Shown here: one piece after another, positions 7,519 through 10,518 of the stretch | Layout of the letters: every line of letters begins with the position of its first letter | How positions within the stretch are numbered: the stretch's first letter is position 1 | Notes under the pieces: generated by a model | What the model was told of the DNA's origin: nothing | Database searches by the model: none | What the model saw: the letters and a program-made list of their open reading frames with translations, nothing else | NCBI RefSeq assembly: GCF_001402875.1 | Contig: NZ_CP012946.1 | Location: 784,001-848,000, forward strand | Origin: Blastochloris viridis | Lineage (GTDB): Bacteria; Pseudomonadota; Alphaproteobacteria; Rhizobiales; Xanthobacteraceae | Length of the DNA stretch: 64,000 nt | Reading direction: 5' to 3' | Made by a program: the position numbers and the translations under genes

Positions 7519-10518
7519 TCAGTCGATCAGGGCATAGGCCGGGATGGTGAGGAACGCCTCGAACTCCGCCGCCAGCGACAGCTTGTGGAACAGCTGGGTT
7601 GCCTCGGCGAAGCGGCCGTAGTCGAACGCCTCCGCGCCGATCTCCTGGCGCAGCCGTGCCATCTCCTCGTGCAGCACGGTCTCGAACAGCGCGGGCGTGA
7701 TCTGGGTGCCGTCGTCGAGCTTGGCGCCGTACTTGACCCACTGCCAGATCTGGGCGCGGGCGATCTCGGCGGTGGCGGCATCCTCCATCAGATTGTAGAG
7801 CGGCACCGCGCCCTTGCCGCTCAGCCACGCCTCGATGTAGCGCACGCCGACCCGGATATTCTCCCGGAAGCCGGCTTCGGTGCGGGTGCCCTGCGGCACC
7901 TCCAACAGCTCGGCCTGGCCGAAATCGACGTCCTCGCGCAACTCGTCGAGCTGGTTCTTGCCCGGCATCAGCCGGTCGAACACCGCCATCGCCACCGGCA
8001 CCAGATCGGGGTGCGCGACCCAGGTGCCGTCGTGGCCGTCGCCGGCCTCGCGCTCCTTGTCGGCGCGCACCTTGGCGAAGGCGGCTTCGTTGCGCTCTGG
8101 GTCATCCTTGATCGGGATCTGCGCCGCCATGCCGCCGATCGCGAACGCGCCGCGCATGTGGCAGGTCTGGATCAGGAGCTGGGCGTAGGCTTTCAGGAAC
8201 GCCTTGCCCATCACCACCTGGCCGCGGTCGGGCAGGATGAAGTCGGGCGTCTGCGCCAGCGTCTTGATGAACGAGAAGATGTAGTCCCACCGTCCGCAAT
8301 TGAGCCCGGCGACGTGGTCTTTCAGCTCGTGCAGGATCTCGTGCATCTCGAACGCCGCCGGCAGCGTCTCGATCAGCACGGTGGCCTTGATGGTGCCGCG
8401 GTGGATGCCGAGCGTCGACTCGGTGTGCAGGAACACCTCGTTCCACAGCCGCGCCTCAAGGTGGCTTTCGAGCTTGGGCAGATAGAGATAGGGCCCCGAG
8501 CCGTCGGCCAGCGCCGCCTTGGCGTTGTGGAAGGCGTAGAGGCCGAAGTCGAACAGGCTGCCGGCGACCGGCGCGCCGTCGACCTCAAGGTGGCGCTCGA
8601 CCAGATGCAGCCCGCGCGGCCGCACCATCAGCACCGCCGGGTCGTCGCCGAGTTCGTAGCGCTTGCCGGTGTCCGGGTCGGTGTGGTCGAACACCGCCGA
8701 GTGCCAGCGGTCCTTCAGGTTGATCTGGCCCTCGACCATGTTGGCCCAGGTTGGCGAGTTGGCGTCCTCGAAATCGGCCATGAACACCTTCGCCCCGGAA
8801 TTGAGGGCGTTGATGATCATCTTGCGGTCGGTCGGGCCGGTGATCTCAACCCGGCGGTCGTGGAGGTCGGGCGGGATCGCCGCGACCTTCCAGGGATGCT
8901 GGCGGATGTGCCGGGTCTCGGGCAGGAAATCGGGCAGCTCGCCGGCGTCGAACCGGGCCTGCCGCTCGGCGCGCGCCTTCAGGAGATCGCGCCGCCGGCC
9001 GTCGAAACGGCGGTGCAGCGCGGCGATGAAGCCGAGCGCTTCGGCGGTGAGGATCTCCTCGAACCGTGGCGCGAGCTTGCCCAGCACCTTGACGCCGTCC
9101 GGCATCGCCGCCTTGCGCGGCGCCGGCGTGGTGCGCGGCTTGGCCGGCCGTGTGGACGGAGCGGTGGCTGGGCGCTTGGCCTCGGCCGGGCCGGCCCCGC
9201 GACGCACCGTCGGCGGCGGCGCGGAGCGGCGCTCGGCCTGGGCGGTGCGCCGGGTGGCGGTCGCGGCGCGGCTGGCGCGCGAGGCCGGCCGGCTGGCGGG
9301 CAGCGCCGGCGTCGCCGGTTTGGCCGCGCCACGCTTGGTCGCTGCGGGCTTCGTCGCAGTGGTCTTTGCTGCGGTGGTCTTCGTCGGCGTTGTCTTCGCC
9401 GCCGTCGGCTTGGCGGCTGCCCGTTTCGACGCTGCCGCGGGACGCTGAACGGCAGTTGAAGCACTGCGACCGCGGGCGGGCGCTGCCTTGGCGGCGGTGG
9501 CCTTGGTGGGGGTCTTGGTGGTCGCCTTGGCCTTGGTGGTGGCCTTGGTTTTGGCGGCAGGCTTGGTTGCGGCCTTGGTCTTGGGCTTGGTTTGGGTGGC
9601 GGCCTTGGTTTTGGTCGCGGGCTTGGTTTTGGTCTTGGTCGGCGTTGCGGCTTTCGCCGTCTTGGCCGGTTTGGCGGTCGTCGTCGTCCGGGTCGCGGTT
9701 TTCGCGGTCGCGGCCCGGCCTCGGGCAGGGCTCGCGGCGCGGGCGGGCTTTTTGGCTGCCGCCTGCTTCGCCTTGGCCGCAGCAGTCTTGGCCGCAGCAG
9801 TCTTGGTCGTGGCAGGTTTGGTCGCGGCGGTTTTGCGCGTCGCGGCCTTGGTTGCCGTTTTGCCCGCCGCGGTTTTGCGGGCGGTCGCCTTGGTTGCGGC
9901 CCTGGTCGTGTTGGCGGTCTTGGTCGTCTTGGCTTTGGCCGTCGCGGTGTTGCCGCGCTTGGCCGCCGCGGCCTTGGCCTTTGCAGTCTTGGCCTTTGCA
10001 GTCTTGGCCGTCGCAGCTTTGCCGGCGCCGGCCTTGCCGGTGGCAGCCTTCGCTGTGGTCGTTGTGCGCGCGCTCGGCTTGGCCGCGCTCGCTTTGCGGG
10101 CGGTCGTCTTCGCTGCGGGTGCCTTGCCGGGTTTCGCTGCGATCCGCTTCGTCGCGCCGGCGCCCTTGCCGGTCGCGGCTTTCGCTTTCGCCGGGGCTTT
10201 CGCCGCGGACTTGGCGGCGGTCCTGGTCGGGCTTTTCGTCGCGGTCTTCGCCGCGGGTCTGGCGGCCGTCTTCGTCGACCGCGCCGCGGACTTGCCGGCC
10301 GTCGTCTTGGTCGCAGCTTTGGCAGCCTGCTTGACCGGAGCCGCATTGGTGCGGGGCTTTGCCACAGCGGATTTGGCGGCGCTGGCGCGCGTGGCGGCTT
10401 TGGTCGCCTTGGCTTTCGACGCCTTGGTGTCGCCGTCAGTGGTCTGTCCAGGGCGCGCCGGTTTGCCGGCGCTGCGGCGCGAAGCTGTCCCGCTGGATTT
10501 CCCTGACGTCGTCGCCAT
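7519..10518 (-). CDS. Malate synthase A with a long N-terminal histone H1-like Lys/Ala/Thr-rich extension
   Basis: Residues from about 472 onward form a complete 528-residue malate synthase A (glyoxylate plus acetyl-CoA to malate, glyoxylate shunt). Family blocks include VFMADFEDANSPTW, the AVLMVRPRGLHL block, TIKATVLIETLPAAFEMHEI, LNCGRWDYIFSFIK and the LMEDAATAEI block with the catalytic Asp. Ahead of it lie 471 residues made almost only of Ala, Lys, Thr, Pro, Arg, Ser and Gly, with no Phe, Trp, Tyr, His or Cys. The reading frame is unbroken. The ATG at 10518 has a strong GAGGAGA site eight bases upstream. An internal ATG at 9105 (PDGVKVLGK) has only a weak AAGG and would give an ordinary malate synthase. 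The tail resembles eukaryote-like H1/AlgP DNA-binding tails. No isocitrate lyase gene lies nearby. Confidence 0.9.
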   Translation of the reverse strand: MATTSGKSSGTASRRSAGKPARPGQTTDGDTKASKAKATKAATRASAAKSAVAKPRTNAAPVKQAAKAATKTTAGKSAARSTKTAARPAAKTATKSPTRTAAKSAAKAPAKAKAATGKGAGATKRIAAKPGKAPAAKTTARKASAAKPSARTTTTAKAATGKAGAGKAATAKTAKAKTAKAKAAAAKRGNTATAKAKTTKTANTTRAATKATARKTAAGKTATKAATRKTAATKPATTKTAAAKTAAAKAKQAAAKKPARAASPARGRAATAKTATRTTTTAKPAKTAKAATPTKTKTKPATKTKAATQTKPKTKAATKPAAKTKATTKAKATTKTPTKATAAKAAPARGRSASTAVQRPAAASKRAAAKPTAAKTTPTKTTAAKTTATKPAATKRGAAKPATPALPASRPASRASRAATATRRTAQAERRSAPPPTVRRGAGPAEAKRPATAPSTRPAKPRTTPAPRKAAMPDGVKVLGKLAPRFEEILTAEALGFIAALHRRFDGRRRDLLKARAERQARFDAGELPDFLPETRHIRQHPWKVAAIPPDLHDRRVEITGPTDRKMIINALNSGAKVFMADFEDANSPTWANMVEGQINLKDRWHSAVFDHTDPDTGKRYELGDDPAVLMVRPRGLHLVERHLEVDGAPVAGSLFDFGLYAFHNAKAALADGSGPYLYLPKLESHLEARLWNEVFLHTESTLGIHRGTIKATVLIETLPAAFEMHEILHELKDHVAGLNCGRWDYIFSFIKTLAQTPDFILPDRGQVVMGKAFLKAYAQLLIQTCHMRGAFAIGGMAAQIPIKDDPERNEAAFAKVRADKEREAGDGHDGTWVAHPDLVPVAMAVFDRLMPGKNQLDELREDVDFGQAELLEVPQGTRTEAGFRENIRVGVRYIEAWLSGKGAVPLYNLMEDAATAEIARAQIWQWVKYGAKLDDGTQITPALFETVLHEEMARLRQEIGAEAFDYGRFAEATQLFHKLSLAAEFEAFLTIPAYALID

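Follow-up and report, generated by a model that had tools for sequence, protein, structure and literature searches.

Why should an enzyme of central carbon metabolism begin with a tail that resembles histone H1 in composition, and are these residues translated at all? The question is raised by the malate synthase A (MsA) gene in the window analyzed here, a stretch of 64 000 nt of the Blastochloris viridis genome. The gene, complement(7519..10518), runs for 999 codons from its ATG start with zero internal stops; the best reading is that its product is one 105-kDa protein, an ordinary acidic MsA that carries at its N terminus a long tail, lysine-rich and disordered. Tails that are retained in relatives and yet diverge suggest that MsA is held on DNA or on another negatively charged polymer. 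We assign a probability of about 0.6 to the tail being a non-specific electrostatic tether, which would attach MsA to a polyanion of the cell; the nucleoid and/or polyphosphate are the likeliest candidates.

In bacteria, known bearers of H1-like tails are granule proteins and enzymes acting on nucleic acid; here such a tail makes up nearly half of a central carbon enzyme. The kind of tail is thus familiar and the enzyme is unexpected; the polycationic tail on MsA is real, conserved and probably selected.

The MsA core and its polycationic tail

Residues 472–999 are, by profile and alignment, a complete malate synthase A. They match the NCBIfam profile TIGR01344 with 852.5 bits (curated cut-off 594.5) and contain all three Pfam domains, MS_N, MS_TIM-barrel and MS_C; R635, E717, D745, E912 and D913, which we take to be catalytic residues, are unchanged throughout a 28-sequence alignment. 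In an AlphaFold2 model made with a 28-row alignment the core folded moderately well (overall mean predicted local distance difference test score, pLDDT, 59.2; predicted template modeling score, pTM, 0.57) and matched solved structures with a Foldseek E-value of 2e-50 and a target TM of 0.89. The nearest solved structure is Escherichia coli 3cuz by fold and Bacillus anthracis 3cux by sequence. Both enzymes are like the whole core of the window protein in family score, Pfam domains and predicted fold; the solved chains, with 528 and 532 residues, differ from it in lacking the 471-residue tail.

In the tail itself 451 of the 471 residues are A (157), T (95), K (81), P (38), R (37), S (23) or G (20), followed by Q (6), V (4), N (3), D (2), E (2) and one each of M, I and L, while F, W, Y, H and C are absent. 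The computed charge is +113.4 for the tail versus −17.6 for the core. The AlphaFold2 model has no secondary structure in residues 1–470, with pLDDT block means of 34–50. The initial annotation had described a full MsA preceded in one unbroken frame by 471 biased residues, which the 999-codon frame, the residue counts and the TIGR01344 score confirm; its term ‘histone H1-like’ is supported as regards composition. It gave no strand for the gene, which is encoded on the minus strand. Two parts of the tail differ from the rest (Table 1): the segment adjoining the core, residues 404–471, appears partly alignable across three Blastochloris species in what is a low-complexity alignment, and the tandem repeats of another part are a likely route of length change.

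Conservation, probable translation and probable selection of the tail

Looking for the fusion in other Blastochloris genomes had been proposed earlier as a check; it is present in three of three genomes of the genus (open frames of 1010, 1035 and 1006 codons; tails of 471, 485 and 456 aa), and therefore it is no assembly accident. From searches of the family and the order we considered 98 loci, a part of all matches: the 58 that matched best, 20 that followed in the family list and 20 more, mostly matches from the order chosen for long frames. A K/R-rich MsA tail was present in 39 of the 51 loci of the own family, 38 by rule (44–485 aa in length) and L154 by hand, as the Shine–Dalgarno rule had misplaced its start. 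None of the 47 loci from other families of the order was tailed, with L172, which passed the rule with zero lysine, excluded from the tailed set. By a similar rule 79 of the 120 best protein relatives were tailed; in 31 the core was preceded by <40 residues, and the N-terminal part of the other 10 was longer but failed the rule. In the class, 72 of 385 genomes matched MsA at 1e-100. Tails from other orders, basic and K/A/P- or K/R/A/P-rich as judged by eye, were seen in six of 20 class loci fetched mostly for long frames (L216, L217, L220, L225, L226 and L228; the last three with just 7–11% K over the open frame), and L113 is a further tailed locus beyond these six. The initial annotation knew of no glyoxylate-shunt enzyme with such a tail. 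We too found no open PubMed Central paper whose title or opening of the abstract shows a malate synthase with one. The MsA fusion is not a one-off, being widespread in the family and recurring elsewhere.

On a tree of 103 cores (38 tailed rows) the tail label requires six changes, four of them forced by supported branches, as compared with a mean of 31.0 for shuffled labels; on a tree of 121 cores, of which 46 were labeled tailed (eight by hand), it requires five, with three forced and a shuffled mean of 36.8. The R-rich L020, located at a contig end, was untailed in the first tree by a stricter rule and tailed by hand in the second. Tailed groups are Blastochloris, a clade that unites the Rhodoplanes-like tails and Pseudolabrys, a clade with shorter K-rich tails and groups outside the order. 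Judged from these core alignments, the tail must have been gained or lost three times or more to satisfy the supported branches; gains are not separable from losses because both trees were quick searches with many poorly supported deep branches. Tails of the Rhodoplanes type (L004, L008, P0005 and P0019) have in common a basic segment near the core, approximately ARERAAGRVKRAVRRVV, which is unlike the remaining tail and may be a helix.

Each of the three genus genomes has a strong Shine–Dalgarno sequence before the far ATG, which indicates initiation at the far end of the tail. In the window it is AGGAG, 8 nt before the ATG, and the earlier suggestion that a strong ribosome-binding site at the first ATG makes translation of the tail probable is likely to be right. 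Far-end ATG or GTG codons with a Shine–Dalgarno match of at least four bases were found in 28 of the 39 tailed genes; such a start ≤25 codons upstream of the core was found in 1 of 39 tailed versus 52 of 59 untailed genes. About 1.4 kb of tail is free of stops in three species, though each tail holds 81–106 AAG/AAA codons. In the window, an alternative in-frame ATG (Met472) has only a weak AAGG, located 5 nt upstream as read by eye; this codon was not scored by our Shine–Dalgarno rule. The two sister species (L002 and L003) have no such start: the closest ATG/GTG codons 5′ of the core are 54 and 62 codons away, respectively, and have no Shine–Dalgarno sequence by rule. The NCBI entry P0003 of B. 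sulfoviridis does start at an internal ATG, one without a Shine–Dalgarno sequence by rule, and has 592 aa; the open reading frame at L003:1501-4452 has 984 aa, so that the entry hides ∼390 tail residues, and annotated start sites can conceal such tails. Another relative, P0001, is predicted at 994 aa. Together these observations argue strongly for translation of the tail.

The tail diverges faster than the core. For the pair L002/L003 amino-acid identity is 0.56 in the tail versus 0.94 in the core and non-synonymous divergence (dN) is 0.363 versus 0.031, with a tail ratio of dN to synonymous divergence (dS) of ∼0.5. Over 12 pairs the ratio of tail to core dN ranges from ∼2 to 24, exceeding 10 in five pairs and being lowest in L152/L156 (tail identity 0.91); tail dN/dS, a rough measure here, is 0.17–0.86. 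Codon use is less biased in the tail than in the core. We compared the tails with a neutral model of substitution, without indels and with 66% GC assumed at equilibrium, started from L002 (60 runs at d 0.36 and another 60 at d 0.69) or from L001 (60 runs at d 0.6). In 60 of 60 runs of each setting the charge per residue was below that of the real relative, the fraction of hydrophobics plus His was above it and one or more stops appeared. With d set to 0.36 for L002 to L003, the simulated charge per residue was 0.151 at most (observed 0.213), and hydrophobics plus His were 0.101 at least (observed 0.068); the acidic fraction alone gave no separation at this distance (simulated minimum 0.035, observed 0.035). 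Since the frame, the charge and the lack of hydrophobics outlast neutral simulation, translation of the tail and selection on its charge are both very probable, the case for selection being fairly strong.

Proposed function and rival explanations

The closest known counterparts are AlgP and PhaF of Pseudomonas, which, like MsA, join a long disordered Ala/Lys/Pro-rich polycation to another domain. Their tails are C-terminal, KPAA-repeated and carried by granule-associated proteins, whereas the MsA tail is N-terminal and carried by a central metabolic enzyme. By predicted disorder and composition the MsA tail is a long disordered Ala/Lys-rich polycation of the AlgP/PhaF type; it contains two KPAA motifs in 471 residues and not the tandem KPAA repeats of that family. 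PMC9239181 gives net charges of +55 and +35 for the AlgP and PhaF tails; the C-terminal domain of AlgP has 195 aa, is predicted to be disordered and contains 25 perfect KPAA repeats. DNA binding is reported there for KPAA peptides and for a fragment of the AlgP tail, and AlgP is described as DNA-binding and placed at polyphosphate granules. Bacterial topoisomerase I, including that of B. viridis, is also an enzyme with a K/A-rich appendage, a C-terminal one made of lysine repeats; in MsA the tail is N-terminal and the substrates are not nucleic acid. For Streptomyces topoisomerase I the lysine repeats are reported to stabilize the enzyme on DNA (PMC7398561; also the title of a work cited in PMC6821194). 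The HC2 family (PF07382) resembles the MsA tail in composition, and the tail of the relative P0119 exceeds its Pfam cut-off (50.6 versus 40 bits). Formyl-CoA transferase of the same bacterial family has, like MsA, an N-terminal tail, which is shorter and more lysine-dense. The MsA tail, though by test outside the KPAA and HC2 families, plausibly works like the AlgP and topoisomerase tails.

We propose that the tail would be kept for its bulk positive charge and not for residue order, that in-frame repeat slippage would alter its length and that the polycation would tether MsA to the nucleoid and/or polyphosphate, as has been suggested for AlgP and PhaF with their H1-like tails. The comparisons point moderately to tethering on a polyanion and weakly to which polyanion it would be. 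If true, tethering of MsA to DNA or polyphosphate links carbon metabolism with nucleoid or granule organization. A survey of low-complexity regions in prokaryotes cites earlier work on eukaryotes in which metabolic proteins were depleted of such regions (PMC6821194). One could speculate further, and quite tentatively, that H1-like N-terminal tails in this bacterial family are an address tag, gained repeatedly and selected for charge alone, that places selected enzymes, among them MsA and formyl-CoA transferase as two of two-carbon and CoA metabolism, on the nucleoid or polyphosphate; a polyanion scaffold would then organize or sense carbon flux.

Several observations weigh against the tether. 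No Pfam family, HC2 included, matched the tail of the window protein at E 0.001, and thus the label ‘H1-like’ rests on composition; tail styles vary among relatives (T-rich, P-rich, R-rich and K-rich). Twelve tail-less MsA form a clade inside the same family, so the tail is not required for the enzyme as such. Neither formyl-CoA transferase nor MoaC, both of them tailed, acts on nucleic acid. By rule, 11 of the 39 tailed loci have no clear far start, among them L020 and L142, which reach contig ends. Finally, dS is higher in the tail than in the core, 0.694 versus 0.125 for L002/L003 and likewise in 11 of the 12 pairs; this points to misaligned low-complexity repeats as well as to real turnover, and therefore dN/dS and the simulated distances are rough.

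A tail that is translated and selected for charge may still act otherwise: it could fold back on the acidic core or join subunits, serve as a solubility or condensation handle, bind RNA, ribosomes, anionic membranes or polyhydroxybutyrate granules, or be a platform for lysine acetylation tuning activity. The charges of core and tail (−17.6 and +113.4) permit intramolecular or inter-subunit attraction, charge is retained across tails of different style, and formyl-CoA transferase, which does not act on nucleic acid, is similarly tailed; still, the composition is nearest to known DNA- or polyphosphate-binding tails, to the H1-like protein of the same genome and to the topoisomerase tail, and we consider actions of this kind unlikely. 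We see a yet smaller chance that the tail is a translated but functionless by-product of repeat slippage in GC-rich DNA. Its short tandem repeats, fast turnover and weaker codon bias, as well as the 12 tail-less relatives, speak for this, but neutral simulation loses charge and gains hydrophobics and stops in all 60 runs per setting, the tree holds at least three separate changes, and in the 464 kb of own genome sampled long K/A stretches occur in MsA and topoisomerase I only.

That the tail is untranslated, the enzyme starting at an internal codon near residue 472, appears very improbable. The in-frame ATG there with its AAGG and the internal start of P0003 favor it; they are outweighed by the absence of such a start in both sister species, the strong Shine–Dalgarno sequence at the far ATG in all three genomes, the stop-free ∼1.4 kb rich in AAG/AAA codons and the prediction of 994 aa for P0001. 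An assembly or sequencing error that fused two genes has a negligible chance, being refuted by the same architecture in other genomes of the genus and the family; one of the findings that were to overturn the initial annotation, relatives with separate genes and a sequencing error behind the join, is ruled out by these relatives, which are fused alike. We thus retain electrostatic tethering as the preferred reading.

Other lysine-rich proteins and the genomic setting

Table 1. Coordinates of the MsA gene, its parts and lysine-rich proteins at other loci
Feature	Location	Strand	Description
MsA with polycationic N-terminal tail	7519..10518	-	999 aa in a single open frame; coordinates include the stop codon
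Disordered K/A/T-rich tail, residues 1-471	9106..10518	-	net charge ~+113, isoelectric point (pI) 12
MsA core, residues 472-999	7522..9105	-	charge ~-18, pI 5.5
Shine-Dalgarno AGGAG, 8 nt 5' of tail ATG	10527..10531	-	read from sequence
Tail end adjoining core, residues 404-471	9106..9309	-	first letters PALPASRP; proline/arginine-rich, lysine-poorer; by composition and alignment
Tail part with short tandem repeats	9511..10047	-	periods 6, 9, 12, 15, 18, 24, 30, 42 (multiples of three)
DNA topoisomerase I, own genome	L203:14016-16766		K/A-rich C-terminal tail
Stand-alone histone H1-like protein, own genome	L191:1267-2322 (G000:C1:2616544-2617599)		352 aa
Lysine-rich N-termini	L280:10255-10959, L270:9209-9730 (G103), L349:12333-13151 (G029)		endonuclease III in both genomes, short one on MoaC

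A scan of 464 kb of the own genome in segments of 60 residues (threshold ≥15% K and 80% KAPTRSG) detected K/A-rich stretches in MsA and DNA topoisomerase I only; segments of 45 residues added a weak stretch in L198 (267-codon frame, 7 K in 45). A search with the MsA tail in this genome, with 150 of 707 first-look candidates scored, returned only the tail itself, a weak negative for so biased a sequence. The stand-alone H1-like protein (A34 T21 K18 R9) has nearly the composition of the MsA tail and a weak HC2 match of 22.3 bits, below the cut-off. It was considered as the source of the tail: the compositions are alike, but no sequence match to it was found in 20 relatives, which leaves duplication as no more than a possible origin.

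The 45-residue scan for K-rich tails covered 2.06 Mb of four genomes (464 kb of G000, 400 kb of G002, 400 kb of G103 and 800 kb of G029) and gave 3, 1, 8 and 10 frames, respectively. The single frame of G002 is R-rich and has 180 codons. Among the eight frames of G103, family search identified formyl-CoA transferase, endonuclease III and MoaC as bearers of K-rich N-termini. G029 gave an endonuclease III with a K-rich N-terminal tail and two cell-wall enzymes with K-containing stretches, a D-alanyl-D-alanine carboxypeptidase (C-terminal stretch) and a transglycosylase (stretch of mixed charge); its seven remaining frames were mostly short. Most of the other scan frames appeared short or off-frame on inspection, and frame L350 had no Pfam match. 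The endonuclease III tails in G103 and G029 make DNA enzymes part of the tailed set of the family; K-rich tails, though uncommon in the samples, also occur on proteins other than MsA. The idea that K-rich N-terminal tails are general in these genomes was weakened by the scan. A stricter scan, which required a Shine–Dalgarno sequence and a K content of 20% over the first 30 residues, gave near-empty lists, with two frames read as ribosomal proteins; as it missed both the window MsA and the tailed formyl-CoA transferase, these lists carry little weight.

Lysine-rich N-terminal tails of 40–101 aa, mostly beginning with MAK, were present by rule in 29 of the 30 best formyl-CoA transferase loci of the same family (L281–L310; L261:2860-4260), a count that is no family-wide rate since the loci were picked via a tailed query. 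Many other formyl-CoA transferases of the family match the query only from about residue 44 and so seem tail-less, and at E 1e-150 the three Blastochloris genomes gave no match to this enzyme. That all oxalate-cluster enzymes are tailed was rejected: the neighbor in L261, read as oxalyl-CoA decarboxylase without a family search, starts tail-less.

The term ‘glyoxylate-shunt enzyme’, used for MsA at first, is probably wrong here. We found no full-length isocitrate lyase in the three genus genomes: a partial match to PF00463 (91–93 positions, above the Pfam cut-off) in two of them is a PEP_mutase-type protein, and TIGR01346 stays below cut-off in all three. The crotonyl-CoA carboxylase/reductase Ccr, a marker of the ethylmalonyl-CoA pathway, is above the TIGR01751 cut-off in all three, and therefore it is more likely that Blastochloris MsA condenses glyoxylate from this pathway, as judged by Ccr alone. 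Malate synthase is listed among ways to use glyoxylate in PMC8307300, in passages that make no mention of Blastochloris. A link between the tail and loss of isocitrate lyase was rejected as a rule, as six genomes with tailed MsA (G029, G031, G034, G038, G070 and G108) have isocitrate lyase above cut-off; with the two enzymes side by side elsewhere in the family, the tail marks no single pathway.

Next to the MsA gene, window positions 5971-7404 encode homospermidine synthase, a full-length match (1101 bits) to the solved structure 4plp, presumably a Blastochloris viridis entry. A link of this neighbor to MsA was considered; the stretches around MsA in two genus mates gave no match to homospermidine synthase. 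On the other side a cytochrome c2-like gene, so named by reading, lies at 10820-11278, divergent from the MsA gene, and cytochrome c2 is near MsA in the two other genus genomes as well.

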